Assembly (NCBI RefSeq): GCF_030068605.1
Contig: NZ_JASJOU010000001.1
Span: 434,001 to 498,000, forward strand
Length of the DNA stretch: 64,000 nucleotides
Source of the DNA: Xanthocytophaga agilis
GTDB lineage: Bacteria > Bacteroidota > Bacteroidia > Cytophagales > 172606-1
Direction: 5' to 3'
The notes beneath the pieces were generated by a model. The model saw only the letters and a program-made list of their open reading frames with translations, had not been told where the DNA came from and did no database searches. The stretch's first letter is position 1; each line of letters begins with the position of its first letter. Shown one piece after another: positions 44,740 through 59,661 of the stretch. The translations under genes were made by a program, and so were the position numbers.

Positions 44740-44806
44740 ACTGTTTTTTACAACCCATTTGATTACAGGTGGGTTTATTCTATATAATCTGCAATTTTAC
44801 TTAATT

Positions 44807-45331
44807 ATGATCCTTTCAGGGCTGGAAATCCGTAAGCAATTAAATAAAACCATCTTTATTGAGCCTTACAGTGAAACCCAACTTAATCCAAATAGTTATA
44901 ATTTAAAATTACATCATGAGTTGTTGGTATACGATGGACCTGAGCTGGATATGCGGAAGCCTAATCCTGCAAGTAAATTGGTAATACCTGAAGATGGATT
45001 ACTATTGGAGCCCGGAAAGCTTTATCTGGGGCGTACTATAGAACACACAAGAACAGATGCCTATGTTCCTATGCTGGAAGGACGTTCTTCCATTGGTAGA
45101 CTTGGCTTATTTGTACATGTTACAGCAGGATTTGGGGATGTTGGTTTTAATGGCTTCTGGACATTAGAGATGTTTTGTATTCACCCATTGCGCATTTATG
45201 CAGGTGTTGAGATATGTCAGATTTTCTACCATGCTGTAGAGGGTGAATATGAAGTCTACTCTAGTGGGAAGTATCAGAATAATCAGGGGATACAACCCAG
45301 TTTGCTTTATAAAGATTTTGAAAAGAAATAA
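44807..45331 (+). CDS. dcd: dCTP deaminase
   Basis: A 174-residue trimeric deaminase producing dUTP from dCTP for thymidylate synthesis. The family motifs are present: LNPNSYNLKLHHEL, the phosphate-binding EGRSSIGRLGLFVH, and the catalytic glutamate in GFWTLEMFCIHPLRIY. I chose the ATG at 44807 (MILSGLEIRKQL), which matches the usual Dcd N-terminus; an upstream in-frame start at 44759 would add 16 hydrophobic residues not found in the family. Bifunctional deaminase/dUTPase activity cannot be excluded. Confidence 0.92.
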   Translation: MILSGLEIRKQLNKTIFIEPYSETQLNPNSYNLKLHHELLVYDGPELDMRKPNPASKLVIPEDGLLLEPGKLYLGRTIEHTRTDAYVPMLEGRSSIGRLGLFVHVTAGFGDVGFNGFWTLEMFCIHPLRIYAGVEICQIFYHAVEGEYEVYSSGKYQNNQGIQPSLLYKDFEKK

Positions 45332-45334
45332 AAT

Positions 45335-45373
45335 AAAAAAGCCTGTGACAATTCGATTATCACAGGCTTTTTT
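45335..45373. terminator. Bidirectional intrinsic terminator
   Basis: A 14-bp stem AAAAAAGCCTGTGA/TCACAGGCTTTTTT with an 11-base loop, between convergent dcd and FKBP genes. A/T runs on both sides let it work in both directions. Confidence 0.88.
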
Positions 45374-45393
45374 ATAGCTATAGCAAAAGGTTA

Positions 45394-46161
45394 TTATTTT
45401 TCTATTCCAAGTAATTCAACTTCAAATATAAGCAGGCTATTAGGAGGCATTTCTGCACCTCTTCCCTGATCTCCATAGCCAAGCTCTGGGGAAATGAAGA
45501 CTTTCCATTTGGAACCTACTTTCATCATTTGCAGTGCTTCAGTCCAGCCTTTAATTACTTGTTGGACACCAAAAACAGCAGGTTCTCCTCTGTCTATAGA
45601 ACTGTCAAATTTTTTTCCATCCAGAAATGTGCCTGTGTAGTGCACTTTTACCCGATCAGTTGGTTTTGGATAAGGGCCAGTCCCTTCTTTAAGAACCAGA
45701 TATTGAAGGCCAGTTCCTGTTGTCACTACTCCTGGTTTTGTTTTATTTGCAGCTAAAAATTCATCTGCCATTTTTTTGTTTTCTACAGCTTTTTGTTTGT
45801 TTTTCTCTTCCATTTTCTGTCTCATAGATTGAAAATAGTTTTGAAGTATACCTACCGATTGCATTTCACTTAATAATAAAGTGTCTTTCTTTTCCAGTAC
45901 GGAACGCAATCCCTGCAGTAATAATTCGGTATTTAATGAATCTATCGGTTGAGAGTTTACACTACTTCCTATGTTTACTCCAATCGAATAGCTTACTGAA
46001 TCAAGATAATTTTTTAGTTGAGGCTTAGGTGGTGCTACAGGCAATGTTGCTTCTGTTTCTCCTTTGCCCTTTTTCTTCTTCTTGTCTTTTTTCTCTTTCT
46101 GGGCGTATGCAATTCCCGAAATCAGACTTAGTAATAATAACAGAATTGAAATTCTTCTCAT
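45394..46161 (-). CDS. Exported FKBP-type peptidyl-prolyl isomerase
   Basis: A 255-residue periplasmic FKBP. The start is ATG 46161, because MRRISILLLLLSLISGIAYA is a clear Sec signal and the upstream extension to 46188 falls inside a hairpin. A Lys-rich linker follows (KEKKDKKKKKGKGE), then the helical dimerisation domain typical of FkpA/Mip (about 55-145), and a C-terminal FKBP domain (GTGPYPKPTDRVKVHYTGTF ... ELGYGDQGRGAEMPPNSLLIFEVEL). These chaperones help outer-membrane protein folding. It is a paralogue of the next gene upstream. Confidence 0.93.
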   Translation of the reverse strand: MRRISILLLLLSLISGIAYAQKEKKDKKKKKGKGETEATLPVAPPKPQLKNYLDSVSYSIGVNIGSSVNSQPIDSLNTELLLQGLRSVLEKKDTLLLSEMQSVGILQNYFQSMRQKMEEKNKQKAVENKKMADEFLAANKTKPGVVTTGTGLQYLVLKEGTGPYPKPTDRVKVHYTGTFLDGKKFDSSIDRGEPAVFGVQQVIKGWTEALQMMKVGSKWKVFISPELGYGDQGRGAEMPPNSLLIFEVELLGIEK

Positions 46162-46171
46162 AGCAGTAAAA

Positions 46172-46203
46172 GCAAAGTAGCACGACATTGCGTGCTACTT
46201 TGC
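46172..46203 (-). terminator. Terminator-like hairpin between two FKBP genes
   Basis: A 13-bp perfect stem GCAAAGTAGCACG/CGTGCTACTTTGC with a 6-base loop, followed on the minus strand by TTTTAC, ends only ten bases before the ATG of the downstream FKBP gene at 46161. It can act as terminator for the upstream gene and as attenuator or translation block for the downstream one. Confidence 0.7.
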
Positions 46204-46220
46204 ATTAGTTTGTTTTAAAA

Positions 46221-46937
46221 TTATTTTTTCCCTTTATATACTTTTAAAAGCTCAACTTCAAATACCAATACTGAATTTGGTTCGATACCACTTCCTGGAG
46301 GTGGCTGCATGCCATATCCTAATGAAGAAGGTACAAATAATTTATATTTAGAGCCTTCAGTCATCAGTTGTAAACCTTCAGTCCATGCAGGAATTACACC
46401 ATTCAATGGGAATTTAGCAGCTTTGCCATGATCATAGGAACTGTCAAATTTCTTACCATTAGTCAACGTTCCTGTATAGTGTACTTCTACTGTATCTGTA
46501 GCAACTGGTTTTACGCCAGTACCTTCTTTGATTACCTCATATTGTAATCCGGAAGCAGTTGTTTTTACACCAGACTTGGCTTTATTGTCTGCCAGGAATT
46601 TCTCACCTGCCTTTGCGTTTGCTTCAAACTTTTTGTTTTGCTCTTTTTCTATATATGAGTTAATCATCATTTGCATTTGCATATCACTCATTTTTACACT
46701 GTCACCTTTCAATGCACTTAACATAGCACTTTGAAGTACTTCAAGGTTAAAAAGAGTATCGGCTCCATTGTCTTTAAAGCGTTTTCCCTGCATTATGCCT
46801 AGTGCGTAGCTAGCTGAGTCTTTGGCATTTTTCAATGAAACAGATCCAGAGCCGAATCCGGCTTTGTTGTTGTTACATGAAGAAAAGAACACACCACCCG
46901 CTAGCAGCATAATGGCGATCATATTATTTTTTTTCAT
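46221..46937 (-). CDS. FKBP-type peptidyl-prolyl isomerase lipoprotein
   Basis: A 238-residue FKBP lipoprotein. The signal MIAIMLLAGGVFFSSCNNN has a lipobox ending at Cys21, so it is anchored in a membrane. The dimerisation domain (about 30-125) and FKBP domain (GTGVKPVATDTVEVHYTGTL ... SSLGYGMQPPPGSGIEPNS) follow the same plan as the adjacent paralogue, from which it probably arose by tandem duplication. Catalysis of prolyl isomerisation in envelope protein folding is expected. Confidence 0.93.
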   Translation of the reverse strand: MKKNNMIAIMLLAGGVFFSSCNNNKAGFGSGSVSLKNAKDSASYALGIMQGKRFKDNGADTLFNLEVLQSAMLSALKGDSVKMSDMQMQMMINSYIEKEQNKKFEANAKAGEKFLADNKAKSGVKTTASGLQYEVIKEGTGVKPVATDTVEVHYTGTLTNGKKFDSSYDHGKAAKFPLNGVIPAWTEGLQLMTEGSKYKLFVPSSLGYGMQPPPGSGIEPNSVLVFEVELLKVYKGKK

Positions 46938-47146
46938 TTAAAAGAAAGATAAAAGATATGGATTGATAATAGTCTTGATTTCTGTATAATATTTTCCCCG
47001 TAGCTATGAAGATGCCGCGAAATTACAGGATTTTTTCGATTATCCTCACATACGTGATGTTTTATCGGATATTTTGTAGCACTCTAAACGCATAGAAGGA
47101 GTGTTCTCATTCTATTTATGTGTTTATTAGAATGCAAATATCCTGT

Positions 47147-48073
47147 TTATTGATTCATTTGTGCCAGTAGGAATAACACTGCCATACGGACAGACACTCC
47201 GTTCTCTACTTGTTGCAGAATAATTGAATGTTGGGAGTCTGCAGCATCACTGGTAAGTTCTACACCCCGATTGATAGGGCCTGGGTGCATAAGAATAATC
47301 TCTTTATTTAGTGAATCAAGCAGTGCTTTATCTATGCCATAATAGAGACTATATTCCCGTAAGGAGGGAAAATATTTGATCTGCTGACGTTCTAGTTGTA
47401 TACGAAGCACATTTGCCACATCACACCATTGCAAGGCTTTACGAACATCATATTCTACTTTAACACCTAATTCCTGAATATATTTAGGTATAAGCGTAAT
47501 AGGTCCACAAACCATTACTTCTGCTCCTAATTTTTGCAGACAGAATATATTAGAGAGAGCAACTCGTGAATGGAGAATATCACCAATAATAGCTATTTTC
47601 TTTCCTTCCAGACTTCCAAGTTTTTCACGAATAGAGAATGCATCTAATAAAGCTTGAGTAGGATGTTCATGTGTCCCGTCTCCCGCATTGACTACATTAG
47701 CTTTGATGTGTTTGGATAAGTAATGAGGAGCTCCTGGACTAGAGTGGCGCATTACTATCATATCTACCTTCATTGCCAGGATATTATTAACTGTATCCAG
47801 TAGTGTTTCTCCCTTTTTTACAGAACTTCCTGAAGATGAAAAATTGACTACATCCGCAGATAATCGTTTTTCAGCTAATTCAAATGACAGGCGGGTTCTT
47901 GTCGAGTTTTCAAAAAAGACATTGGCAATAGTTATATCTCGCAAAGAAGGTACTTTTTTGATAGGGCGGTTGATTACTTCTTTAAAGGTATCAGCCGTTT
48001 CAAAAATCAGTTCTATATCCTCACGTGTGAGGTCTTTGATTCCAAGTAAGTGTCTGACACTCAGTGAAGGCAT
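47147..48073 (-). CDS. pyrB: Aspartate carbamoyltransferase catalytic subunit
   Basis: A 308-residue enzyme of pyrimidine synthesis, condensing carbamoyl phosphate and aspartate. The carbamoyl-phosphate site is FFENSTRTRLSFELAEKRL, the second is GDGTHEHPTQALLDAFSI, and the C-terminal motif is MHPGPINRGVEL. Length and motifs are normal. It follows pyrR by 74 bases on the same strand, so the two are likely one pyrimidine operon. No pyrI regulatory-subunit gene is adjacent. Confidence 0.96.
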   Translation of the reverse strand: MPSLSVRHLLGIKDLTREDIELIFETADTFKEVINRPIKKVPSLRDITIANVFFENSTRTRLSFELAEKRLSADVVNFSSSGSSVKKGETLLDTVNNILAMKVDMIVMRHSSPGAPHYLSKHIKANVVNAGDGTHEHPTQALLDAFSIREKLGSLEGKKIAIIGDILHSRVALSNIFCLQKLGAEVMVCGPITLIPKYIQELGVKVEYDVRKALQWCDVANVLRIQLERQQIKYFPSLREYSLYYGIDKALLDSLNKEIILMHPGPINRGVELTSDAADSQHSIILQQVENGVSVRMAVLFLLAQMNQ

Positions 48074-48147
48074 TGCGTTAATTATAAAGTTGTAATAAGA
48101 ATTTATAAAGCAAACTATCTATTTTAAGACAAAGGACTGCGGATAGT

Positions 48148-48702
48148 TTATCCAGTTGTATCCTGAGTATCTACTAACCAGATGGCATTTTCTGTTGCCC
48201 CTTTCTCTGTCCATTCCACTAAAACACGTTGAGATAGAATGGTATTTACGTGTTGACCAACATAATGTGGCTCGATAGGCAAATCTCTGCTGTATTTTCT
48301 ATCAATCAAGACCAGTAATTCCACCTTATGGGGTCTTCCAAATGCAATCATTGCATCTAGTGCTGCCCGTATTGATCTGCCAGTGAATAATACATCATCG
48401 ATTAAAATGACCTTTTTGTTTTCAATAATAAAAGGTACATGTGTTGTATTGGCAAGAAGGGGTGTTTCCCGTCTGCGAAAATCGTCTCTATAAAAAGTGG
48501 TATCCAGATATCCGGTTGGAACGTTTTTACCTGTTAATTCCTGCAACTTGCTCTGAATGTGTTTGGCTAGAAAAACGCCTTTGGGTTGTAAACCAAGAAT
48601 GACTGACTGCTCGAAAGTGTCATGATTTTCAATGAGCTGCTGGCACAAACGTGTGATAGTAATGTCCAGCAAACGACTATCTAAAATTAGTCTTTTAGGC
48701 AT
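48148..48702 (-). CDS. pyrR: PyrR-type phosphoribosyltransferase regulator
   Basis: A 184-residue PyrR. The PRPP-binding loop VILIDDVLFTGRSIRAALD is intact, as are the N-terminal RLILDSRLLDITITRLCQQL and the flexible YLDTTFYRDDFRRRET segment. PyrR proteins are UMP-dependent RNA-binding attenuation regulators in Firmicutes and can have uracil phosphoribosyltransferase activity. No binding loop or attenuator precedes this operon, and the leader from its promoter is only about 15 bases, so here enzymatic function may dominate. Confidence 0.92.
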   Translation of the reverse strand: MPKRLILDSRLLDITITRLCQQLIENHDTFEQSVILGLQPKGVFLAKHIQSKLQELTGKNVPTGYLDTTFYRDDFRRRETPLLANTTHVPFIIENKKVILIDDVLFTGRSIRAALDAMIAFGRPHKVELLVLIDRKYSRDLPIEPHYVGQHVNTILSQRVLVEWTEKGATENAIWLVDTQDTTG

Positions 48703-48722
48703 GGGGGTTGTAAATATGCCTG

Positions 48723-48730
48723 CAAAGATA
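48723..48730 (-). promoter_or_regulatory. TAnnTTTG promoter of pyrR-pyrB
   Basis: Reading leftward, TATCTTTG is an exact -7 element. It lies 20 bases upstream of the pyrR ATG, so the leader is too short for an attenuator. Confidence 0.6.
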
Positions 48731-48865
48731 AAAACGATTTCGGATTTCAGTTTCGCACATCGGAATTTTTTACATATTTTATGAAATGTATCTCATGGAG
48801 AATATGTTATGATTTTATCAAATATTAATCTTTATTCTCATAAATCTTTAATGTCTGAATAAACA

Positions 48866-48894
48866 AAAACCCCGTCTCAAAGAGCGGGGCTTTT
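48866..48894 (-). terminator. Intrinsic terminator after the CI-like regulator gene
   Basis: A GC-rich hairpin (GCCCCG and CGGGG core with a 10-base loop) is followed on the minus strand by TTTTTGTTT, 30 bases after the regulator's stop. Confidence 0.8.
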
Positions 48895-48923
48895 GCGATT
48901 ATTAGGTCATTCTCAGCAGATTT

Positions 48924-49946
48924 TTATCCAATTCGACGTTGTAATTCCTGTAATTGATCTTTCATTTTCGCTAGTTCCAACTCTACTTCATACAAGAATC
49001 CTTTAACTGGTTGCATATTCATATGAGCTTTTACCTTCCATATTTCCTTAACATCTTTGGTGGCAATAGAATATGTTGGGTAAATTGAATTATCTGATTG
49101 CAGGTAAAGCTTTTGTGAATCTTCTACATACTCAACTCGTTTCACTACTACACTTTCTTTAGTATCAGATACGACTACATACATTTCTCCACTTCTGATA
49201 TCTCTCAATTTTTCTGTAAATTCACAAACCAGCCAATCACCCGTGTGTAGAGTAGGTTCCATACTTTGCCCTGTTACCTGAAAGGCTCGAAATGTGCCAT
49301 TTCTAAACTCTACGCTAGGAATAGAAAAGGCTGGCAGATTACGAATGTATTCTGGTTCAACACATCCTTGCATATATCCGGCGGCAGCTTTAGTACTAAC
49401 CATCAGTATATTATCAGTACCTTCCTGGTTGACTGTAACTGCAAATGGCTGAATAATACGCTCCGTTTGAGTGATAACACGTTCTACCACATTGCCTTTG
49501 CTTGTGTCTTTGTCCAGGCGTAATTTTTCATTTTCTCTTTCGAGTTCTTTCCGTTTGCGATATAGATCATCATTGGTTTCTTCAATTAACTCAATACGAG
49601 CCTTTAGCATATCATTTTCAGCCTGAATGCGTTGCCAGTCGCGATTAGTAGATTCGCCTGTTCCCAGAAAAGAGTTGGTTGACAGAATACGTTGTGCTGC
49701 TGGTGTAGGAGGGGTAGTATTTAGAAACATTTCACCTTCACCATGATATAACCATTGTTTATTAAGGTTAGGAAAAATTTCTACCAGCTTTTCCAATACT
49801 GCTGTGCTGGGCAGATTCTTTCCACTTTCAATCTGAGAAATACTGGATTGGGTAATCTCCAGCTTCTCTCCAAACTCTTGCTGATTTAAGCCTGCTGCTT
49901 TGCGCAATTGTTTAAAACGTTGCGCATATGTTGAAAAAGGTGTCAT
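48924..49946 (-). CDS. CI/LexA-like XRE regulator with S24 protease domain
   Basis: A 340-residue phage-repressor-type protein. Residues 5-65 are an XRE helix-turn-helix (LRKAAGLNQQEFGEKLEITQSSISQIESG). A coiled coil follows (about 105-150, NDDLYRKRKELERENEKLRL), and then a LexA/CI-like S24 domain: catalytic Ser in VTGQSMEPTLHTGDWLV and Lys in SVVVKRVEYV. An Ala-Gly pair before it (TKAAAGYMQG) could be the self-cleavage site. The long coiled coil is unusual for CI. It is divergent from the nuclease-recombinase genes, whose expression it probably represses until DNA damage. Confidence 0.85.
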   Translation of the reverse strand: MTPFSTYAQRFKQLRKAAGLNQQEFGEKLEITQSSISQIESGKNLPSTAVLEKLVEIFPNLNKQWLYHGEGEMFLNTTPPTPAAQRILSTNSFLGTGESTNRDWQRIQAENDMLKARIELIEETNDDLYRKRKELERENEKLRLDKDTSKGNVVERVITQTERIIQPFAVTVNQEGTDNILMVSTKAAAGYMQGCVEPEYIRNLPAFSIPSVEFRNGTFRAFQVTGQSMEPTLHTGDWLVCEFTEKLRDIRSGEMYVVVSDTKESVVVKRVEYVEDSQKLYLQSDNSIYPTYSIATKDVKEIWKVKAHMNMQPVKGFLYEVELELAKMKDQLQELQRRIG

Positions 49947-50070
49947 GTTATTATAATAAGAAGAAAGTTACAATGATATTTCTTTCGCTGTAGTAATAAT
50001 TTTCGAATGCAATAATAATTAAAATAAATTATTTATTCCTATTTTTTAGTGATAAAAATTATTTTACCTC

Positions 50071-50119
50071 AAAAATAAGAAATTTTATTTTTGATTTTTA
50101 TCTGTTTTAATTATATTTG
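50071..50119 (+). promoter_or_regulatory. Promoter and candidate operator of the nuclease gene
   Basis: TATATTTG (50112-50119) is an exact -7 element, and TTG (50091-50093) lies 18 bases upstream as the -33. An inverted repeat AAAAATAA / TTATTTTT (50071-50078 and 50085-50092, six bases apart) overlaps the -33, so a bound repressor would block the promoter. AT-rich sequence makes chance repeats likely, so the operator is tentative. Confidence 0.55.
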
Positions 50120-50159
50120 CAACGGTTTAAATGGTTTGATTATAATAAAGCGAGATAAT

Positions 50160-50957
50160 ATGTTTATACCTGCTATTGCATCCAGACCTTCTGTATCTCA
50201 GTCCCTGGTGAAAGAATTGCGTAATGATGTATGTCCCAGACGTATATATGGTGCTTATGTTTTAGGATTGCCTACAGTGCCTACAGATAGTCAGTTGAGA
50301 GGTATTTACTTTGAGTATAAACTCACTGGTTCATGTGGTAAATCGGGGATTCCGCCTATAGAACCTCTGCAGAAAACAGGTAAGCGATATGTGGATTTTG
50401 AGCGGCTGGATGGACAGGCTCAATTTATACGAGAAGAACTGTTTCCTTATTATGGTATAGAAATACTGGATACGGATGTTGTGATCGCAACTGAGTTTAC
50501 TCATCCTGACACAGACGAGATTGTTACTGTAAAATGCCGTCTGGATGTTTTGGCACGGGTAAATAATAAACTGGCAGTGATTGATATCAAGGCAACTGGA
50601 GACGTAGCAAACGGTGGATGGCGGAATCCGATAGGACTGGATCATACACAGGCTTATTTCTATATGTGGGCTTTATATCAGTCGAAGGAACTTAATAGCG
50701 AGGGTGTTATGCCTGAGTTTTATTATATAGTAGCAGACTGGTCTCCACGAAGTGATTATGAAGTAATTAAAGTAGAATGGAATAATGGAAGTTTCTGGGA
50801 AGTGCGTCATGCTGCAACAGAAGCATTTGATAAAATGAAGAGTATGGAAGAGCAGGGGTTTCCTGCCAGACCATCTTATCAACAGTGTCAATCTTGTCCA
50901 TTCCAACATTCCTGTACAGATAAAAAACAGTTCAAAGAAGTAAAAGTAATCTGGTAA
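50160..50957 (+). CDS. Cas4/RecB-like PD-(D/E)XK Fe-S nuclease
   Basis: A 265-residue single-domain nuclease of the RecB/Cas4 type. The start is ATG 50160; the 23 residues encoded upstream (MIFICFNYICNG...) overlap the promoter. The active site reads RGIYFE (Glu52), RLDV (Asp129), IDIKATGD (Asp142, Lys144) and HTQAYFY (Gln164, Tyr168). Four cysteines match the Cas4 layout for a [4Fe-4S] cluster: Cys25 (DVCPRR) and Cys243, Cys246 and Cys252 (QCQSCPFQHSCTD). No CRISPR or other cas gene is nearby, so it is a phage-type 5'-3' or 3'-5' exonuclease that makes single strands for the recombinase downstream. Confidence 0.85.
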   Translation: MFIPAIASRPSVSQSLVKELRNDVCPRRIYGAYVLGLPTVPTDSQLRGIYFEYKLTGSCGKSGIPPIEPLQKTGKRYVDFERLDGQAQFIREELFPYYGIEILDTDVVIATEFTHPDTDEIVTVKCRLDVLARVNNKLAVIDIKATGDVANGGWRNPIGLDHTQAYFYMWALYQSKELNSEGVMPEFYYIVADWSPRSDYEVIKVEWNNGSFWEVRHAATEAFDKMKSMEEQGFPARPSYQQCQSCPFQHSCTDKKQFKEVKVIW

Positions 50958-51029
50958 AAAATAGACACTTTATTTCTGAGCAGAAAATAGTTGACAACCT
51001 TCTCTTTTGTTATTTTTCATCCTTGTTTG

Positions 51030-51063
51030 AAAACTCCGTTAACTCTGTTGACGGAGTTTTTTT
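51030..51063 (+). terminator. Intrinsic terminator
   Basis: A 10-bp stem AAAACTCCGT/ACGGAGTTTT with an 11-base loop and a T-run, 70 bases after the nuclease gene. The ATPase gene downstream therefore needs its own promoter. Confidence 0.85.
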
Positions 51064-51133
51064 ATTGTTATATATCATGTCTTATCACCTTATTTTATAA
51101 AGACCTGAAGTTGAGATGATAATAAATATCTTG

Positions 51134-51183
51134 AAAATAATTTTAATAATTATTTTGGATAATATAATATTTGATTATATTTG
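51134..51183 (+). promoter_or_regulatory. Promoter and candidate operator of the Sak4-like gene
   Basis: TATATTTG (51176-51183) is the same -7 octamer as at the nuclease promoter, with TTTTG (51153-51157) 18 bases upstream. An inverted repeat AAAATAATT / AATTATTTT (51134-51142 and 51148-51156) overlaps the -33. The shared layout suggests both are controlled by the same regulator. Confidence 0.55.
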
Positions 51184-51218
51184 TACTGTAAATAATATCG
51201 CATATAACGAATAAAACT

Positions 51219-51887
51219 ATGAATCTTATCACAATCATTGGCGGTGGTTCAGGTACAGGCAAGAGCTACTCACTACATAATTTAGGCAAAGATGCGGTTG
51301 TATTAAATGTTGAACGCAAAATGTTGCCCTTTCAATCCAAGGGATTGGTAAACGTACCAATCAATTCTACTTTCAAACTGTTTGAAGCAATTAACCGGTT
51401 ACGTGATAATGATGAGTTTAGAATAATAATACTGGATTCATTCTCTGAATTCTGTGATATTCTTCTGGCTGAATGTAAAAATAAAGCTAAGGGGTTTGAT
51501 GTATGGAACTTATATAACACAGAAATATTCAATTTGTTTCAGGCGTTGAAAAGCCTAAAAAACAAATATGTGTTTGTTGTAGGCCATACAGAAACTTTAA
51601 TGGACTCAGATGGAGAAAGAATTCAGCGGTTGAAAGTAAAAGGAAAAGAGAATGAAGGGATGATTGAAAAGAACGCAACGTGTGTGTTCTATTCCAAAAC
51701 TGTACGCAGACAGGATGGAAATGGAGTAGACTACAAGTTCATAACAAATACAGACGGGTATTTACCTGCTAAAACGCCATTTGGCATGTTTAAAGATTTT
51801 CTGGTTGAAAATGACCTTGCTGCAATTGTAAAGGTATACGACGCTTTCTATCATGAAAGTGCAATGAAACTGGCAGAAGCTGCCTGA
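51219..51887 (+). CDS. Sak4-like RecA-fold single-strand recombinase ATPase
   Basis: A 222-residue P-loop ATPase. Walker A is at residues 9-16 (IIGGGSGTGKSYSLHNLG), Walker B is FRIIILDSFSEF, and VVGHTETLMDSDGERI is the sensor-like segment. The length and N-terminal P-loop match phage Sak4-type annealing proteins (an AAA-like branch of the RecA fold) rather than full RecA, which is longer and has DNA-binding loops not seen here. Situated between a Cas4-like nuclease and an SSB-like protein, it is best read as the strand-annealing recombinase of a phage-type module. Confidence 0.78.
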   Translation: MNLITIIGGGSGTGKSYSLHNLGKDAVVLNVERKMLPFQSKGLVNVPINSTFKLFEAINRLRDNDEFRIIILDSFSEFCDILLAECKNKAKGFDVWNLYNTEIFNLFQALKSLKNKYVFVVGHTETLMDSDGERIQRLKVKGKENEGMIEKNATCVFYSKTVRRQDGNGVDYKFITNTDGYLPAKTPFGMFKDFLVENDLAAIVKVYDAFYHESAMKLAEAA

Positions 51888-51975
51888 TTTGTGGTTGCGA
51901 ATAGAGAGAAGTTTCAATAAGAAAACCAGAATATTTACTTCAAAAGATGTTTAACTTCCTTAATTTTTAAATTCT

Positions 51976-52863
51976 ATGTTAGCAACTTCCATTCCAACTA
52001 TGCCCCAAGAATCAGTACGTAGAGAACACTATGTAGGTATTTTGTTGGCGTATGTTGAAGCAATTAACCCAACCGATGCAGAACGTATTGAAATGGGTAT
52101 TGTCACTCAGGAGTCACTGGATAGTGGTAGAACCAAACCTGTAAACTATCGTGAAGAAGATGGTCGATATCGAATTGACTTCTGGTTAAAAGGTAAAGAT
52201 GAATCTGGGAAAGATGTACGGGTACGCCACTCTGTTTTTGTGAAAAATGAAGATGCTCGTCCATCGACAGTGGGTAATATCCAGGTAATTAATCAACAAG
52301 GGAAAACCGCTTACATCCCTCAGGTATTTTTCGAAAAAGGAAAATCTCCTTATGAAGATTGGTTTAGTGCTCCTTTTCAACGTGCACGTGTAGGAGAAGC
52401 AGAATTACTACACTTTGTAAATGCCTGGATGAACAAGAAAACAGAAGACAAAGCAGTTGTACTGGATTTTGCATCCATTTCTAAAGGAAACCTGAAACAA
52501 TTGCACCAGATTCTGCAAAGTGATAAAGCTTCTTATGTGAAAATAATGCTGGGCGTACGTATTGCAGATGACGGACGTCGTTTTCAGACTGTATTTCCTC
52601 GTTTGGTTATGCCTTCATGGACAATAAACTATGAACGTTTGCATAAAGAATTGGTGAATTATTTGTCAAATGCCCAATCTCGTAATGATTATGGTGTTAC
52701 TCCGGATATGGCGTATGACCGCAAATTATATCGCCTTCGTGTGTATGATGAAGTAGTGACGACAAGTAATTCATCTAACATGATGCATTCCAATATGCAG
52801 GAACCTATTTCACAGCTAGACCTGCCTATTACATCCATGCATGATGAAGACCTGCCTTTTTAA
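51976..52863 (+). CDS. SSB-like protein with DEDLPF tail (recombination module)
   Basis: A 295-residue protein of unknown family. The N-terminal 130 residues are beta-rich (YRIDFWLKGKDESGKDVRVR; TVGNIQVINQQGKTAYIPQV) and could be an OB fold; a helical middle follows (about 165-220). The C-terminus, after a disordered Ser/Asn/Met stretch, is SMHDEDLPF: acidic residues ending in Leu-Pro-Phe, as in the C-terminal tip of bacterial SSB that recruits repair proteins. With the nuclease and recombinase upstream, I infer a single-strand DNA-binding or mediator role. That is from context and the tail only. Confidence 0.55.
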   Translation: MLATSIPTMPQESVRREHYVGILLAYVEAINPTDAERIEMGIVTQESLDSGRTKPVNYREEDGRYRIDFWLKGKDESGKDVRVRHSVFVKNEDARPSTVGNIQVINQQGKTAYIPQVFFEKGKSPYEDWFSAPFQRARVGEAELLHFVNAWMNKKTEDKAVVLDFASISKGNLKQLHQILQSDKASYVKIMLGVRIADDGRRFQTVFPRLVMPSWTINYERLHKELVNYLSNAQSRNDYGVTPDMAYDRKLYRLRVYDEVVTTSNSSNMMHSNMQEPISQLDLPITSMHDEDLPF

Positions 52864-52964
52864 GTAAGATCTGATGAGAGGGTGAAATCTGGCAGGAAAT
52901 TTATCAATAGATTTCCCCTCTCTCAACCAGCTATAGTACCTTATTATATTCATTTACTACAACT

Positions 52965-53273
52965 ATGATTTCGAATAAAGATTTATATCTGGAAGAATAC
53001 TATCAGAACGGCGCAGAGATAGCTATGTATCAGGAATTTGAAGCATGGCAGGCGTGGGAGGCATTGTTGAAATGGGCCGATGATCGTATTCGTCAATCTG
53101 AATCATTTTTTCTGGATTTAAGAGATGATTCTTTAGAACCTGTAGAAATAACGCCGGAAGATGAATTAATCAGTGAGGAAATGAATTGGTTTATGCGTGG
53201 AGACTCTGTTTCACAGGAAGGAAAGTCAATTCGTTTTTTGCCGGAAAATACCGGATGGCGTATACCTGCCTAA
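52965..53273 (+). CDS. Small acidic hypothetical protein
   Basis: A 102-residue acidic, Trp-rich protein (MISNKDLYLEEYYQNGAEIA; EAWQAWEALLKWADDR). It is helical in the first half and poorly ordered after. No family is recognised. It is the fourth gene of the rightward module, 101 bases after the SSB-like gene, and of the kind often seen in phage early regions. Confidence 0.6.
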   Translation: MISNKDLYLEEYYQNGAEIAMYQEFEAWQAWEALLKWADDRIRQSESFFLDLRDDSLEPVEITPEDELISEEMNWFMRGDSVSQEGKSIRFLPENTGWRIPA

Positions 53274-53342
53274 GGAAAGTGGTACTCTTTCAGATTTGAT
53301 CTTTATCTGGTAGAAGGGATTCATTTTAAAAAAACAAACCAT

Positions 53343-53711
53343 ATGAATAGTAAAGTTAAGCAGTTATGGACGGAGGCATTGCTCAGTGGGGAGTATAAAC
53401 AGGGATCTAAACGGCTTAGAGATAAAGAAGATCATTTCTGTGTATTGGGAGTATTATGTGATTTATATGTAAAACACCATACGGATTGCCGATGGAAGCC
53501 TATGGAAACCAAAAGTGGTTTTCGGATTGTCGGTAAACGTGAAATTCATTGGTGTGAAGACTATTTGATTGAGCCTGTAATGGAATGGGCTGGATTGGAA
53601 AAAAATAATCCGTTGGTAGAATATGACGGACAAAATATTTCTCTGGTAGCTTTGAACGATAAGGGATTACCATTCGAACAAATTGCCAGATTAATAAAAC
53701 AACAGCTTTAG
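53343..53711 (+). CDS. Phage-type small hypothetical protein
   Basis: A 122-residue protein whose N-terminus (KVKQLWTEALLSGEYKQGSK ... FCVLGVLCDLYVKHH) matches a common small-protein family of phages and mobile elements of unknown function. The second half has a D-G-Q-N-I-S-L-V-A-L-N-D-K-type segment that is also conserved in that family. It supports a phage origin for the module. Function unknown. Confidence 0.7.
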   Translation: MNSKVKQLWTEALLSGEYKQGSKRLRDKEDHFCVLGVLCDLYVKHHTDCRWKPMETKSGFRIVGKREIHWCEDYLIEPVMEWAGLEKNNPLVEYDGQNISLVALNDKGLPFEQIARLIKQQL

Positions 53712-53782
53712 ACTATAAAAAATGCTGGTTGCAATAGGTGGACCAGGTGTTTTTACAAATTAAAACAAAACTAATAATAGCC

Positions 53783-54046
53783 ATGTACGTTGCTGAAAAG
53801 ATCACTTGCCCTCATTGTGCCGGAAGTCGTACTGTTCAGATACAGGAACGCGAATTTGCTATCTGCGGTGTTTGTAGTGGCAGAGGGTATATTCAAAAGT
53901 ATCAAAAACTTACTGCTGCTCAGATTTTTGGAATGATATGGCAGGAAGATACGAATACGGATGTTAAGTATGCTGTTAACAGTGGAGAAGGGGGAAGTTC
54001 GCAAGATAGAAATGATGATCGGAAAGGCGTTATTAAGAAGTCATAG
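53783..54046 (+). CDS. Small DnaJ-type zinc-finger protein
   Basis: An 87-residue protein with two CxxC pairs separated by about 17 residues (ITCPHCAGSRTVQI and AICGVCSGRGYIQ), a DnaJ central-domain-like zinc ribbon. The start is ATG 53783; an upstream in-frame GTG at 53738 would add 15 residues without clear meaning. The C-terminal half is polar and disordered. In phages such proteins are common and mostly unassigned. It is 71 bases after the preceding gene. Confidence 0.6.
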   Translation: MYVAEKITCPHCAGSRTVQIQEREFAICGVCSGRGYIQKYQKLTAAQIFGMIWQEDTNTDVKYAVNSGEGGSSQDRNDDRKGVIKKS

Positions 54047-54154
54047 GCCAGACAAAGGTGAGTAATAGATCGCTGATAGATTACTCAATAAAGGATGTGG
54101 TTTTATGTATTGATATATCCTGTTTTCAGTGTATTACTTTTCGATTTTTTACTG

Positions 54155-54562
54155 ATGATTGAACTTACAACCCGCTATCCTTGTCAACGCATTACCCTTG
54201 ACCCTGATTTTACAGAGATGGTTTTAGATAAAGTAATCCTCCTTTCACATATTTCTTATTTTGACTGGATTGATGATTTTATAAAAATCTATTTCTGTAT
54301 TAAGATGACTAACCATAATGGACGGACTGAAAGTATCATATGGCATCCATTCAATGAAGTTTCTGTTGCAAATTGTTATCCTATTGCTGAGTATAATGAA
54401 GTAATCGAAATACCTGAATGGGCTATAGAAGCAGAAGTCTCATTGGTGAATACAGATCTTCTGACAGGAGATGAAGTTGTAGGTGTTTTTCTGGATTTTA
54501 CTAAAGCACCACGCTCAGTGCAGGAAACAAACCGAGTTGATGTGAGTGCAGATGTATATTAA
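54155..54562 (+). CDS. Hypothetical protein
   Basis: A 135-residue acidic soluble protein (MIELTTRYPCQRITLDPDF). The frame is open up to an ATG at 54095, whose added 20 residues (MWFYVLIYPVFSVLLFDFLL) are hydrophobic and could be a membrane anchor or merely an AT-rich extension; I prefer 54155. It has no recognised motif. Its composition resembles that of the other small genes of the module. Confidence 0.5.
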   Translation: MIELTTRYPCQRITLDPDFTEMVLDKVILLSHISYFDWIDDFIKIYFCIKMTNHNGRTESIIWHPFNEVSVANCYPIAEYNEVIEIPEWAIEAEVSLVNTDLLTGDEVVGVFLDFTKAPRSVQETNRVDVSADVY

Positions 54563-54652
54563 AATAGAAGTGGAATTGTGCAGGATTACATACACAAATT
54601 TAACCAATCCACTTATTACCCAAATTGAAAATAATTAAAACGTTAGAAAACT

Positions 54653-55021
54653 ATGGCACTTAAGATTAAACGTAGATTAACAACAGAAACTATTGATAAT
54701 CTGGCAACGACATTGCCGTTATATCTGACAGACGAGTTTAATATATGGTACTATGCTGTTTTGGATGAAAATACTGTGTTGGTAGTTTCATGTGATTCAT
54801 GCCAGGTACAGACTTTTGATGAGACTTTTAATAGCAAATATTCCATAGATTTTGATGAATTGAAAAAATGTGATGCAGCTTCTTTTAATGAGGTATACTC
54901 ACATACCAGAGAAAGATTAGTGGATGCTGACAGAAAGCTTCAGTCTTCTTTGGCTGTATCAAAGTCTACCTTTACAGAACTTTTCATTGAGAGTGCCGAT
55001 CATTTACGTGCTGCCAGCTAA
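54653..55021 (+). CDS. Hypothetical protein
   Basis: A 122-residue acidic protein with a basic start (MALKIKRRLTTETIDNLATT), a beta-rich central part (YYAVLDENTVLVVSCDSCQV), and a helical end (RERLVDADRKLQSSLAVSK). No family is recognised. It is the last gene of the module: a strong terminator follows 29 bases after the stop. Confidence 0.55.
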   Translation: MALKIKRRLTTETIDNLATTLPLYLTDEFNIWYYAVLDENTVLVVSCDSCQVQTFDETFNSKYSIDFDELKKCDAASFNEVYSHTRERLVDADRKLQSSLAVSKSTFTELFIESADHLRAAS

Positions 55022-55050
55022 TAATCAGATAGATTATTAATATAATACAC

Positions 55051-55095
55051 AGTCCCATTGTATGTAGTCAGAGTAACATACAATGGGACTTTTTC
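55051..55095 (+). terminator. Intrinsic terminator closing the recombination module
   Basis: A 15-bp perfect stem (55051-55065 with 55076-55090), 10-base loop and a run of five T. Confidence 0.88.
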
Positions 55096-55228
55096 TGTTT
55101 GTAAGCTTGGGAAGTGATAGCGATTGACTATGATTGTTTAAATGCTTATTGTTTTAGAATTTCAATAACCTTTTCCTAGACATTATCTGTACTTGTCTGA
55201 ATACCTTCTATATTGTTGTTAATCATAG

Positions 55229-56677
55229 TTAATTACCATTTGATGAAAGCGAAGATTGTTTAATCAAATCCTGAGTAAATTGTAGTTCCCTGTCAGTATG
55301 ATTAAGTATATCCTGAATAGAGGGTTCAATCGTATGATCTGGAATCACACCATGATCAGGATATGGATATCCTGAAACAGCCATATAATAAGCTAACATG
55401 GGAATCCCTACAATAAACTTACTGTGAGGTAATTTAACAATAATGAAGGTGCCACTGTTGTTTCCATAATAGCCTCCGCCTACTTCTTGTCCAATAAATG
55501 TAGCTCTCTGATGAGAGTGGGCTATTGTAGCAAACTCTGACGTTACCGAAAAGCTCCATCCATTCGTAAGGATATATAATTTACCCAAATAGGCATTTTG
55601 CTGGGGCTTCTGAACCTTCAGGTTTTTGTGATGTGTCCATAAATGTGGTCCATTTTTAGGTTTTTTGATTAGCATTTTTAGAATGCCGTAAAACTTAGGC
55701 ATATCTGCATATTGTGCAAAGCTATATGAATGGGTTGGGGTCATTTCCAGACGGTCATAGTAAGGAAATTTTTCATCTGTCAGATAAGAATACAGTTGAG
55801 CTCCCCATCGGTCCAGGCCTCCTTCATTATCCCGCAAGTCAAGAATCAAATGTTGAATATTACGGGTTTTGAGTTGAGCAAAAGATTCCTTTAGAAATTG
55901 TTCATAATCATCTCCTTTTTGAGCTGGATAGAATACCTTGATACGTATAAGAGCCGTTTGATTGTCCAGAAATTTCAGCTGAAAGGTAGGTTCTTCTGGT
56001 TTGGGATGCTGTTTCTCAAATGCTTCAATCTGAGATACTGTTACTGCTGGAACTTCAAGAGATGAAGTAGTACTATCTGTTTTACGGCAAGTAATCTGAA
56101 AGGATGGGGACGAACCTATAAGGTTAGCATAATAAGCTGAAAAGCCTTGGTTTAATTCCAGATATCGGGTAGACCGATTGTTTCCATCTACGAAAATTTT
56201 TGTGAGTAATGAAGAAACAACTTCTGAAACAGGTTTGCCATTGATTGCAATAATTTCTGTTCCTTTAGCGACTGGAAGATTGCCTGCATAACTTTCCAGT
56301 ACATATACCTTCTGCTGAGTAAAATAAAGCTGCCAAGGGAACAATTGATCTGTCGCGTAAAAATAACGAGTCGTCCACTTGCCATCCGGATGAAATTTTG
56401 TGTGACCACATTTGATCTGCGCAATAGCTGGAGTAAGAGTTTGATAGAATTCCTGATCAGTCATCTCTCGTTTAAAAGAATGTGACAGACTATCAAACAT
56501 CTTTGTAAATGTTGTTGTATCTGTATAACGATACAAACCAGGATGTGCTTCTTTTAATGCTCTCTGGAAGACATCAAAATCTTCCTGCATCTGAGTGGGA
56601 GTTAGCTTTACCGTCTGAGCAAAGCTGGACAGGCATATGATTAGACCTATCCAGAAACAAAGGACCTTTTTTTGCAT
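55229..56677 (-). CDS. Exported S41-family (C-terminal processing-type) peptidase
   Basis: A 482-residue exported protease. A Sec signal (LCFWIGLIICLSSFAQ) leads to a helical N-terminal domain (about 25-110), a PDZ-like part (about 115-215, VAKGTEIIAINGKPVSEVVS), and the S41 core with the strand LILDLRDNEGGLDRWGAQL and catalytic Ser in NGWSFSVTSEFATIA. The lysine partner, four residues later in typical CTPs, is not clear, so it may use the tricorn-like triad arrangement. It lies 77 bases downstream of the AraC-type gene on the same strand, with its own promoter. Confidence 0.85.
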   Translation of the reverse strand: MQKKVLCFWIGLIICLSSFAQTVKLTPTQMQEDFDVFQRALKEAHPGLYRYTDTTTFTKMFDSLSHSFKREMTDQEFYQTLTPAIAQIKCGHTKFHPDGKWTTRYFYATDQLFPWQLYFTQQKVYVLESYAGNLPVAKGTEIIAINGKPVSEVVSSLLTKIFVDGNNRSTRYLELNQGFSAYYANLIGSSPSFQITCRKTDSTTSSLEVPAVTVSQIEAFEKQHPKPEEPTFQLKFLDNQTALIRIKVFYPAQKGDDYEQFLKESFAQLKTRNIQHLILDLRDNEGGLDRWGAQLYSYLTDEKFPYYDRLEMTPTHSYSFAQYADMPKFYGILKMLIKKPKNGPHLWTHHKNLKVQKPQQNAYLGKLYILTNGWSFSVTSEFATIAHSHQRATFIGQEVGGGYYGNNSGTFIIVKLPHSKFIVGIPMLAYYMAVSGYPYPDHGVIPDHTIEPSIQDILNHTDRELQFTQDLIKQSSLSSNGN

Positions 56678-56709
56678 AGTTGTAAATAAGATTGTAGTAA
56701 AATGTGGTG

Positions 56710-56717
56710 CAAAAGTA
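56710..56717 (-). promoter_or_regulatory. TAnnTTTG promoter of the S41 peptidase gene
   Basis: Reading leftward, TACTTTTG is an exact -7 element, 32 bases upstream of the ATG at 56677. It indicates separate transcription from the upstream regulator gene. Confidence 0.5.
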
Positions 56718-56754
56718 TATCCCCACTTAGTATTGATCGTCTGATCCGATAAAT

Positions 56755-57942
56755 TCAGACAACTTCTTTGTATGATTTGATGTATTCAGACGGAGTTTGT
56801 CCGGTTATTTTTTTGAAAACAGCATTGAATGTGGCTTTGGAGTTAAATCCTGCTTCTCCTGAAATAGCTAATGTCGTCAAGTGTTTATACTTGGGATCAA
56901 CAAGCATACGCTGTGCTTCTTTTACACGATATTCGTTTACAAAATCATAAAAGTTCTTTTCCAGGCGCTCATTGATAAGTTGAGACAATTGATGCCTGGA
57001 AATACCTGTTCGTTCCGCTAAATCCTGAATGGTGAGTTCTTGCCGCAGGTACAGTTTCTCGTTTTCCATCAAATGAGTTAACTGCTTAAGATAGGTATCC
57101 ACTACATCATTAGTCAATGTCGATTTCTGGTATTTGTTTTTAGGTATTTCTTCTTCTGCTACAACAGAAATAGACACATCTTTTTTGGGTTCAGGCACAT
57201 GGGTGACTGGCAATTCAAACTGGTTAAAAATGCGAGGCTGTGAGAGTGCTTTATAGCCAATCCAGTAAATTAAGGCTACAACACCAAGATAATGATAGCG
57301 ATAGAGCTGGGTTAGCCAACCAATATTCCATTTTTTTGCATAAAAAATAATAACAGAGATAAGCATTACTGTTAAGACAAAAAGCAGAAGCTGACGAAGC
57401 CAGCGGAGGCGGATTTGAGTAATATCAGAGAATGAATTCAGAATACCCTGCTGGTATTTCTTTACTATAAATAAAGACAACGTTACATAAAACAGATGCA
57501 GGAAGTTGGTTAGTTGATTCAAAAAACCAAAATCGTCCTGTAGAGCTGCCTCAAAGTTATTCAGATAGGCACTTTTTTCTGCTGCCGATTTTGCATAATA
57601 AGGCAAGAGATAAAAGAAATAAACGATAAAGGGAACCAGATGAATACAGTCTGCTCTTTTCCAGATTGGTTTCTCTGAAGTTATTTTTCGGGTAAACAAG
57701 AAGAGTAATGGACCAAACAAAGAGGGTAGTAGCCAGGATATCTTACTCAGATGAGGAAAGCGAAGAAAAAATTCCCGATTGTCAAAGCCGACTAATAACG
57801 TTTGAATGGAAATTAGAAAAATTAATAACCCTAATAAACGACTTGCCAAAGGATTAACTCTTCGGGTTACCAGCAAAAAGGCTAACAGAAATCCTTGAGC
57901 AGCACCGGCAACAAGTAGTAACTGCAAGATTGTAAAAGGCAT
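56755..57942 (-). CDS. AraC-family regulator with seven-helix membrane domain
   Basis: A 395-residue regulator. Residues 1-240 contain about seven membrane helices (LQLLLVAGAAQGFLLAFLL; LLGLLIFLISIQTLLVG ...), and residues 290-390 form an AraC-type double helix-turn-helix (LTIQDLAERTGISRHQLSQL; FNSKATFNAVFKKITGQTPSEYIKSY). This type is common in Bacteroidota and acts as a membrane-bound one-component sensor. The signal it senses is unknown; the adjacent protease gene is the obvious candidate target. Confidence 0.92.
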   Translation of the reverse strand: MPFTILQLLLVAGAAQGFLLAFLLVTRRVNPLASRLLGLLIFLISIQTLLVGFDNREFFLRFPHLSKISWLLPSLFGPLLFLFTRKITSEKPIWKRADCIHLVPFIVYFFYLLPYYAKSAAEKSAYLNNFEAALQDDFGFLNQLTNFLHLFYVTLSLFIVKKYQQGILNSFSDITQIRLRWLRQLLLFVLTVMLISVIIFYAKKWNIGWLTQLYRYHYLGVVALIYWIGYKALSQPRIFNQFELPVTHVPEPKKDVSISVVAEEEIPKNKYQKSTLTNDVVDTYLKQLTHLMENEKLYLRQELTIQDLAERTGISRHQLSQLINERLEKNFYDFVNEYRVKEAQRMLVDPKYKHLTTLAISGEAGFNSKATFNAVFKKITGQTPSEYIKSYKEVV

Positions 57943-58119
57943 GCATACTATAGTTTTGTAGTGTAAAGGTAAAGAAAACTCTTTACTAAAAAAGAATAGC
58001 TGTTCCAGCTTGATTCAGCTAAAACAGCTATGTAATTAATCTGCTAAGAATGACCTATGTGAAAATCAATGAAATACTATGTGATTTATGAGATGATCCG
58101 CCTATACAAAATATATCAA

Positions 58120-59661
58120 TTACTCTTGTCGGGTAGTCAGATTGGCATCGTAGGTTATTTTATTAAGATAAAATACTCTGCGTTTGCTGGAGCCTACCGT
58201 TCTTGCACCCTGGATCTCCTGTGTGCCCCAACTGATAAAGTATTTGTTATACCAGAAATCAATATTCACATCATCAGAGTCAATCACTTTATCTTCTTCA
58301 AAATTAGTCGCGATCTTAAATTTCTCTTTTTCTTTTAATACATCATTACCACGAATCACTTTGGTATGGATTTCTCCTTCTTCCGGATAGGTGAGAATAA
58401 TTTTGTCCTGGTCAAAGGCAACTTCAACCATTTCCCGCAGATTATAATTAACTATATTCTGGATTTCAAAAGAGTTGTCCCAAAGTAGATTGCCTGATTT
58501 GTCAAAACCACATATCACAGCATGAGTATAGTGATACCCTTCAAATACACGGTCTCCATAACTTCTTCCTAAGTTTCCTATTGGAGCATAGGCATAGCCA
58601 TACGAAGTACCTGAACGATACTGCGGGTAAAATGCTTCTGCAACAAGTATATACTGATCTGAAGTTTCGATAATATCATGCATTAGCAATTTATAATGCA
58701 ATAACATTTCTTTTCCTTTCTGGCGTTTCTTTAAAATCCTTTCTTTGATTTTTTCCTGTCGGCGCGGCTTCATGAAATTAAAGAAGTTCTTAAAGTCATT
58801 AAATTGAAAGTATTTGATGTATTCCTGGTTATTCCCATTGAGTTTAGCCATGAATAACCCCTGAGAGTAAGGAAGGTTTTTATAGGCATAGTGTCCCATA
58901 ATTAGCTTTTCCTGTTCGTTGAGGGATGTAATACGTCCTGTAATAAGACCTTTCTCTTTAGGACTTTCCAATGTCACATTCTGTACTACTTTACCTGAAT
59001 AATCAAACGAGCGAACAGATAACTTACCATGATTACGTTCCTGCGTATAGATGAGTACATTACTGATACGTTGGTATGGATCAATCTGAATATGATTAAG
59101 CTCTGTACGGGGTTCATATAAAGCCGGTAATACACGCGTTCGTTTATCAAAGAAGTTGAATGTTAGCACAACAGGGCGATAATTCACTATTCCACCAATA
59201 AAAGCTGTATTACTTAATACCTTGAACTCTGTCATATAAATATAAGTCAGGGTATTACCATCCATCCATTCATGATCACCCGTTATCAGATCCAGTCGAA
59301 ATATTTTAAACTTCTTCGAGTCTGGCTGAGCTAGTAAGACATAATAATAACTGGAATCCAGATAGGTGTTGACAGGTTCGAACAGGTGATCTACTTTGTA
59401 TTGATTAGCCCATATCTGATGCAGTGTAGTATCATAACGAGTAATATTCCATACATTCCCATCTCTTCCCGACGGAAAGCGTGGTTGAGTAGATACAAGT
59501 AGTCCTTGTTTTTCTAAAGGTGTTACATCATAAATCAGATCTTCGTAATCGTCTTCTTTTAAGGGTAATTCTAATCGTAAGACCTGATTGAGCTGTGCTC
59601 TGGTAAGTATTGGATTAATCCAGGCTAGTAAAACAGCAAGGATAAGTATGCGTTTTTTCAT
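58120..59661 (-). CDS. Exported protein of unknown function
   Basis: A 513-residue secreted or envelope protein with a Sec signal (MKKRILILAVLLAWINPILT, cleavage near RAQ). The mature part is rich in beta strands and aromatic residues with repeated turn motifs (LSVRSFDYSGKVVQ; VICGFDKSGNLLWDN) that suggest a beta-propeller. There is no lipobox or membrane helix. It stands alone; related proteins are found across Bacteroidota with no assigned role. Confidence 0.7.
   Translation of the reverse strand: MKKRILILAVLLAWINPILTRAQLNQVLRLELPLKEDDYEDLIYDVTPLEKQGLLVSTQPRFPSGRDGNVWNITRYDTTLHQIWANQYKVDHLFEPVNTYLDSSYYYVLLAQPDSKKFKIFRLDLITGDHEWMDGNTLTYIYMTEFKVLSNTAFIGGIVNYRPVVLTFNFFDKRTRVLPALYEPRTELNHIQIDPYQRISNVLIYTQERNHGKLSVRSFDYSGKVVQNVTLESPKEKGLITGRITSLNEQEKLIMGHYAYKNLPYSQGLFMAKLNGNNQEYIKYFQFNDFKNFFNFMKPRRQEKIKERILKKRQKGKEMLLHYKLLMHDIIETSDQYILVAEAFYPQYRSGTSYGYAYAPIGNLGRSYGDRVFEGYHYTHAVICGFDKSGNLLWDNSFEIQNIVNYNLREMVEVAFDQDKIILTYPEEGEIHTKVIRGNDVLKEKEKFKIATNFEEDKVIDSDDVNIDFWYNKYFISWGTQEIQGARTVGSSKRRVFYLNKITYDANLTTRQE

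Follow-up and report, generated by a model that had tools for sequence, protein, structure and literature searches.

A compact phage-type recombination island, probably domesticated, in the chromosome of Xanthocytophaga agilis

Gene content and boundaries of the island

The window analysed here is a 64,000-nucleotide stretch of Xanthocytophaga agilis DNA (contig NZ_JASJOU010000001.1, positions 434,001 to 498,000, from a genome of 9.77 Mb), in which a sequence-only reading had picked out a free-standing recombination island of phage type. The list of open reading frames (ORFs) of the window places nine ORFs within 48924-55021, every one of the genes that had been named. One leftward ORF encodes a regulator of the S24 family, and eight rightward ORFs encode, in this order, a PD-(D/E)XK nuclease, a Sak4 annealase, a single-strand-DNA-binding (SSB)-like protein and five small proteins, o1 to o5 (Table 1).

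The neighbours on the left are pyrR and pyrB, and those on the right encode an S41 peptidase, an AraC-type regulator and an ABC1 kinase (Pfam). Ten flanking proteins were scanned against Pfam, and eight of them belong to a non-phage family while two match no family. No integrase or structural family was found among the nine island proteins or, by Pfam, among the ten flanking proteins, in agreement with the earlier claim that these phage genes are absent, and profile scans of the nine proteins also gave no excisionase, primase, packaging or replication family. There are no tRNA genes in the 64-kb window, the longest sequence common to both island ends in a search for attachment-site (att)-like repeats was 10 nt, and the G+C content of the island (0.366) lies beside flank values of 0.369 and 0.378. 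An intact prophage was rejected given that the island holds no integrase or structural family and is flanked by housekeeping genes. The description as an island rather than a prophage held up on the same flanks, and on an arrangement that is intact in Xanthocytophaga flavus YF14B1 and partially present in a third genome of the genus (72% complete).

The terminators claimed for both sides were recovered as hairpins (z -6.1 on the left and -4.9 on the right), and a third, internal one had been overlooked. Because this strong terminator at 51029-51061 lies between the nuclease gene and sak4, the rightward genes probably form two units, the nuclease gene alone and sak4-ssb-o1-to-o5 with a promoter-like stretch of its own. 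That stretch contains a TATATTTG box, which we take to be the Bacteroidota -7 element. The intergenic gaps downstream of sak4 are 69-111 bases.

Table 1. Positions (in the window) of the genes, promoters and terminators of the island
Feature	Position	Strand	Basis
Terminator hairpin, 3' end of regulator gene	48863..48896	-	RNA fold -21.5 kcal/mol, z -6.1
S24-family repressor, 340 residues	48924..49946	-	HTH_19 E 3.9e-14, Peptidase_S24 E 9.1e-14 (Pfam)
Divergent promoter region	49947..50159	.	Between regulator and nuclease genes
PD-(D/E)XK exonuclease-like protein with Fe-S-type cysteines, 265 residues	50160..50957	+	PDDEXK_1 E 4e-12 (Pfam)
Terminator hairpin, internal, between nuclease gene and sak4	51029..51061	+	RNA fold -18.6 kcal/mol, z -5.9
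Probable sak4 promoter	51153..51183	+	Repeat D2, 71% like nuclease promoter stretch 50089-50119
Sak4 (core-only RecA-like annealase), 222 residues	51219..51887	+	phrog_2872 E 3e-33, phrog_124 E 3.2e-24
SSB-like protein, crAss-like phage type, 295 residues	51976..52863	+	Phage matches, neighbourhood, model, Foldseek
o1, 102 residues	52965..53273	+	No relatives found (Pfam, PHROG, named phages at E up to 1)
o2, 122 residues	53343..53711	+	Phage family phrog_18067, E 2.8e-22
o3, 87 residues	53783..54046	+	Two CxxC pairs, zinc ribbon-like; weak matches, best phrog_9961 E 4e-5
o4, 134 residues (155 from ATG 54095)	54158..54562	+	No relatives found
o5, 122 residues	54653..55021	+	No relatives found
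Terminator hairpin, right end of island	55051..55090	+	Inverted repeat I10; RNA fold -22.9 kcal/mol, z -4.9

The nuclease, with its start taken as ATG 50160 (the ORF list starts it at TTG 50091), carries D129, D142-x-K144, QAYFY (Q164, Y168) and the cysteines Cys25, Cys243, Cys246 and Cys252. The catalytic D, D-x-K and QxxxY and the Cys...CxxCx5C pattern are all kept in the third genome of the genus and in the related phage described below. The structural model of the nuclease (pLDDT 74, pTM 0.75) was closest in Foldseek to a putative exonuclease (E 1.5e-7), RecE (2.4e-7) and SSO0001 (2.7e-7), in a group that also has ACE1, an Argonaute-associated Cas4 protein, and was followed by DinG, AdnAB and others including AddAB. 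A PD-(D/E)XK nuclease with Fe-S-type cysteines, as had been proposed, is borne out by these motifs. CRISPR Cas4 itself was rejected, given a score of 24.5 bits against a cut-off of 65 for NCBIfam Cas4, and no other CRISPR-type family was found among the nine proteins.

The proposed Sak4-like recombinase matches the PHROG Sak4 family with high significance, and its Walker A (GGGSGTGKS) and Walker B (IIILD) motifs fit a core-only RecA ATPase. The SSB-like protein has no Pfam (including DUF669) or PHROG match at E up to 1 and was recognized by other evidence. It ends in DEDLPF, and this acidic C-terminal tip together with the position after sak4 fits a phage SSB next to Sak4. Matches in crAss-like phages amount to 20 records, some in duplicate, with E down to 1e-13, and in the named crAss-like phages cr85_1 and DAC15 the same SSB type is encoded two small genes downstream of Sak4. 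In phage Sak4 loci generally, an SSB-type tip was seen in 34/121 ORFs starting at most 1.3 kb after Sak4 versus 11/693 other ORFs, in 66 loci of which several are near copies of each other and not independent. An SSB-type tip follows Sak4 in 33/66 of these loci, and 23/66 have a profile match to the island SSB. The 66 loci come from 96 given, 87 of them with a Sak4 match, after exclusion of five duplicates and of loci with fewer than 1300 bases after Sak4 or without a plus-strand match.

The model of the SSB-like protein (pLDDT 78, pTM 0.74; residues 264-295 of low confidence) showed a weak likeness to DUF669 proteins in BFVD, where 5 of the 50 rows shown carried this name (best E 5.9e-3, low TM score) and 3 of the 50 rows shown, without a named function, reached E 0.001 or better. 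Sequence searches of solved structures with SSB, nuclease and Sak4 profiles gave no useful match.

The divergent S24 regulator and its promoter region

The regulator is built of a helix-turn-helix (HTH) domain, a long linker and an S24 domain with Ala189-Gly190, Ser228 and Lys269. The Ser-Lys dyad noticed earlier is present as Ser228 and Lys269, together with the Peptidase_S24 match, and the protein carries the residues needed for self-cleavage. This type of regulator is common in the order, with a match in 168/194 genomes.

The 17-mer TTTTAATTATNNTTGCA occurs in inverted orientation at the two divergent promoters, at 50008-50024(-) and 50105-50121(+). These are its only exact matches in 64 kb, and five occurrences with at most two mismatches were found versus 1.43 expected. 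Parts of the divergent region that bears it are conserved in X. flavus and in the third genome. The 17-mer may be an operator, or merely promoter sequence common to both genes.

The divergent promoter region is common to the regulator and the nuclease gene only, and sak4-ssb sits behind a terminator. Of the CI-like control proposed for the whole island, that of the nuclease gene, which adjoins the divergent promoters, is predicted; for sak4-ssb, with a promoter-like stretch of its own, such control would have to be presumed. A TAAT-N5-ATTA dyad was seen at 51165-51177, just upstream of the sak4 -7 box, and likewise upstream of the nuclease gene of the third genome. It is not claimed as an operator because it is missing at the X. 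agilis nuclease promoter.

Phage relatives, distribution and selection

One IMG/VR contig of 104.6 kb (IMGVR_UViG_3300038556_000043) encodes homologues of four of the eight non-regulator island proteins. Sak4 is 63% identical; the SSB homologue is 28% identical and its gene directly follows Sak4; the nuclease is 39.6% identical over 260 residues (E 1e-63); and o2 is 35% identical (E 4e-15). Because four homologues occur in one crAss-like contig, the recombination machinery of the island is, as judged from these likenesses, phage-derived. The contig encodes an integrase (PHROG match), a terminase (E 5.6e-45), a portal protein (E 1.9e-55; assigned by PHROG, with no match to the P22-type portal profile), a ParB-like protein and its own DNA polymerase clamp, and has DnaB and primase in the gene run of the nuclease. 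The terminase matches 78 phage records and the portal protein 16, and among the 15 and 8 matches listed, respectively, all were crAss-like by name or unannotated. The contig is a probable temperate crAss-like phage, as judged by its genes. Its nuclease gene is separated from sak4-ssb by 9 kb or more, and therefore the island would be a selection of phage genes and not one trimmed piece.

Other searches in phages and plasmids gave few relatives. Named phages contained none of the nuclease and plasmids none of Sak4, and in IMG/VR the window proteins alone found no relative of the nuclease or the SSB-like protein, while a nuclease profile found three contigs.

The whole locus is colinear and intact in X. 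flavus, with 96.2% identity over 19.9 kb. In the third genome, pyrR, the repressor gene (75-76% identical) and the nuclease gene (75%) follow in the same order up to the contig end. The same gene order was thus recovered elsewhere, completely in X. flavus and partially in the third genome, but not in the related phage contig with its widely separated genes. The contig of the third genome starts (1-400) with an inverted partial copy of the C-terminal end of the nuclease and a repeated sequence, which could be a duplication or an assembly fault. In one member of the family (G006), the direct neighbour of pyrR is a homologue (53% identical) of the window gene at 58120, and therefore about 9.4 kb, made up of the island and the S41 and AraC genes, intervenes in the window.

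Relatives of Sak4 were found in 3/59 related genomes (one a weak 33% piece) and in 2/395 genomes of a phylum sample (one weak), those of the SSB-like protein in 2/19 related genomes and 1/395 of the class, and those of o2 in 2/39 related genomes. For the nuclease the numbers were 3/291 in the order and, with a profile, 5/296 in the phylum, four of them weak and partial. When two short Sak4 peptides served as patterns in a scan of a collection of 84,980 species, the one Sak4 locus recovered was that of X. flavus. In these collections the island set is nearly absent outside the genus. The family phrog_2872 does have matches in 181/291 genomes of the order, and an order-wide Sak4 was rejected: among the matches listed, all but those of X. 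agilis and X. flavus scored at most 31.1 bits, mostly in frames of ~440-550 residues, which are presumably RadA. Only these two species look like true Sak4 carriers in the order, among the matches listed.

Comparison of X. agilis and X. flavus gave ratios of non-synonymous to synonymous divergence (dN/dS) of 0.012 for the S24 regulator (46 synonymous and 2 non-synonymous changes), 0.000 for Sak4 (21 and 0) and 0.047 for the SSB-like protein (24 and 4). The nuclease was omitted from this count on account of an alignment gap; the two proteins are 98% identical. Between X. agilis and the third genome, the proportion of synonymous differences (pS) in the S24 and nuclease genes was 0.95-0.96, which is near saturation, and the proportion of non-synonymous differences (pN) was 0.161 and 0.170, respectively, compared with 0.063 for pyrB and 0.117 for pyrR. 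The S24 and nuclease genes are under long-term constraint that is looser than that of their housekeeping neighbours. Purifying selection is clear for the regulator, the nuclease and Sak4.

The five small genes had been called orphans, and this description stands for o1, o4 and o5, which gave no weighty Pfam or PHROG match and no match in named phages at E up to 1; o4 had no relative in IMG/VR either. It does not stand for o2, a member of a phage family, and o3 has weak matches of the zinc-ribbon type. Relatives of o2 were also seen in Synechococcus, Alteromonas and Bradyrhizobium phages, at five places in one Synechococcus phage (B23).

Origin and possible function

On balance, and with moderate confidence, we favour the reading that the island is a domesticated recombination module, the core of which stems from genes that served a temperate crAss-like phage in replication and recombination and which would work in a RecET-like manner. 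The observations behind it are the genes and their motifs, the phage homology, the common site in the genus and the purifying selection, with which the domestication proposed by the sequence-only reading is compatible, so that domestication can be called probable. The enzymatic activities, the repression and the inducer are predicted. The Fe-S-type PD-(D/E)XK exonuclease would resect a broken DNA end, the phage-type SSB would coat the exposed strand, and the DEDLPF tip of the SSB would load Sak4, which would anneal the strand to its complement independently of RecA, like RecE-RecT or lambda Red. The divergent S24 repressor would keep the nuclease off until self-cleavage at Ala189-Gly190 after DNA damage, and might also hold sak4-ssb off through the similar promoter. 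More tentatively, it is possible that the genus took over the machinery for end processing and annealing from a temperate crAss-like phage, separated it from the replication of the phage and placed it under a damage-sensing S24 repressor, as an inducible, RecA-independent and inherited recombination pathway.

Several observations weigh against the domesticated module and its proposed control. The complete gene set was seen in two close species only, and searches of the 72% complete third genome for sak4, ssb and o2 found none of them. The small genes o1 to o5 have at most 4 changes each between X. agilis and X. flavus, too few for a selection test. With the internal terminator between them, sak4-ssb and the nuclease gene are uncoupled, and no relative of the regulator could be detected in the phage contig. 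Cys252, the third cysteine of the cluster, is unaligned in two more distant phage nucleases, and the SSB model had no PDB match at E 0.001 in a fold search. The divergent region contains 4 dyads of the form 4-N5-4, close to the 2.9 expected by chance, and neither of the two published Bacteroidetes SOS boxes (GGA-N5-TCC and CTAA-N5-TTAG) occurs in four intergenic regions examined in the island or in the divergent region of X. flavus and the third genome; the single copies noted, GGA-N5-TCC at 52339 and CTAA-N5-TTAG at 53407, lie within genes. Given that these published operators are missing from the island promoters, control by DNA damage is likely rather than demonstrated, with both the inducer and the repression presumed.

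It is unlikely that the island is a passive remnant, that is, the early region of an old prophage that lost the rest by deletion and is now drifting. The phage origin of the core genes and the lack of clear relatives for four of the five small genes would fit such a remnant, but the ORFs are intact in both X. agilis and X. flavus, dN/dS lies below 0.05 for S24, Sak4 and SSB, and the S24 and nuclease genes are constrained down to 75% identity in the third genome. Furthermore, no att-like repeat above 10 nt, tRNA, integrase or structural relic was found in the searches described above, and simple trimming of a phage with nuclease and sak4-ssb genes as far apart as in the related contig would not yield the island order. 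In the sequence examined we found neither phage structural genes nearby nor a gene set confined to intact prophages, although the nearest relatives of four island genes do sit in a probable temperate phage.

Still less likely is an anti-phage island, in which the module or its repressor would hamper recombination by phages that enter the cell, in the way that Sak and Sak4 are inhibited by Stl2 of SaPI2. A repressor that binds Sak4 filaments provides a precedent (PMC11846896, in excerpt), and phage-derived parts could compete with a related phage. The anti-phage role suggested by the sequence-only reading nevertheless found no direct support, as PADLOC gave only partial single-gene matches of Cas4, DruK and HTH type that do not make up the gene set of any one defence system. 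A phage satellite or other mobile island moving with a helper phage is very improbable: the locus is compact, repressor-led and divergently transcribed with phage-like genes, but none of its nine proteins matched an integrase, excisionase, primase or packaging family, its chromosomal position is shared by three genomes of the genus, and the 84,980-species scan gave a single locus with a close Sak4.

If the island is a domesticated module, the pairing of an exonuclease with an annealase would follow the logic of RecE-RecT and lambda Red. The modelled nuclease resembles RecE, whereas the annealase is a Sak4 with an SSB and not RecT or Red beta. A closer parallel for the annealase is phage HK620, where annealing is stimulated by an SSB encoded beside sak4, and Sak4 needs the last six residues of this SSB in order to bind SSB-covered DNA; up to 80% of sak4 genes adjoin an ssb gene (PMC5928155, in excerpt). 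The island likewise has sak4 beside an SSB gene and an SSB-like C-terminal tip, the HK620 tip being known to us by description. In contrast to HK620, the island SSB has no Pfam DUF669 match and is not in a phage, and the gene beside the island module encodes a nuclease where HK620, according to the excerpt, has a RecBCD modifier.

Replication blocks of crAss-like phages (Crassvirales) contain PDDEXK_b, AAA ATPase, DnaB and primase genes, and a 2021 analysis found PD-(D/E)XK nucleases in the block and raised integrated crAss-like prophages as a possibility (PMC7886860, in excerpt). The island resembles them in the Sak4 and SSB type of cr85_1 and DAC15 and in the nuclease, which in the related contig lies in one gene run with DnaB and primase. 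It differs in that only the nuclease, Sak4, SSB and o2 have such kin; their genes are grouped together in a chromosome, and the island lacks DnaB, primase and structural genes. As for control, the SOS response of Bacteroidetes is governed by related S24 proteins, the non-canonical LexA regulators (PMC8565304, in excerpt), and in Francisella the co-opted phage repressor FddR runs the SOS response and regulates divergently transcribed genes (PMC13148647, in excerpt). The island regulator shares with these the HTH and S24 domains with Ala-Gly and Ser-Lys and, with FddR, the divergent genes, as far as the excerpts describe them, but it is a 340-residue protein with a long linker that adjoins a nuclease gene and lacks the published operator motifs.

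Beyond the sequence-only reading, the analysis adds a crAss-like origin, an assignment for the SSB, a division into separate transcription units and evidence that the locus is conserved in the genus. No open-licence PMC paper on a captured Sak4/nuclease module of this kind was found by title among the matches listed, and none was found that covers crAss-like phages, a Cellulophaga phage and an SSB together. The island would be a case of a bacterium retaining the DNA machinery of a crAss-like phage. Phage recombinases are the workhorses of recombineering and few tools exist for Bacteroidota, and a nuclease, an annealase and a matching SSB already resident in a Cytophagales chromosome make a candidate tool. 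The island also suggests a function for a 'hypothetical protein' of crAss-like phages: the one encoded between Sak4 and primase in cr85_1 (5977-6927 of the extracted locus) and DAC15 (5929-6912) belongs to the island-SSB family and is probably their SSB.

Identity to X. flavus over window positions 42289-62195 is stepped, with 86-94% at 45.3-49.3 kb, 94-96% at 49.3-52.3 kb and 98.6-99.8% from 52.3 kb on. Synonymous divergence falls in the same comparison from 0.44-0.50 in pyrB and pyrR to 0.02 in the S41 gene, and the step looks like a recombination boundary across the island.

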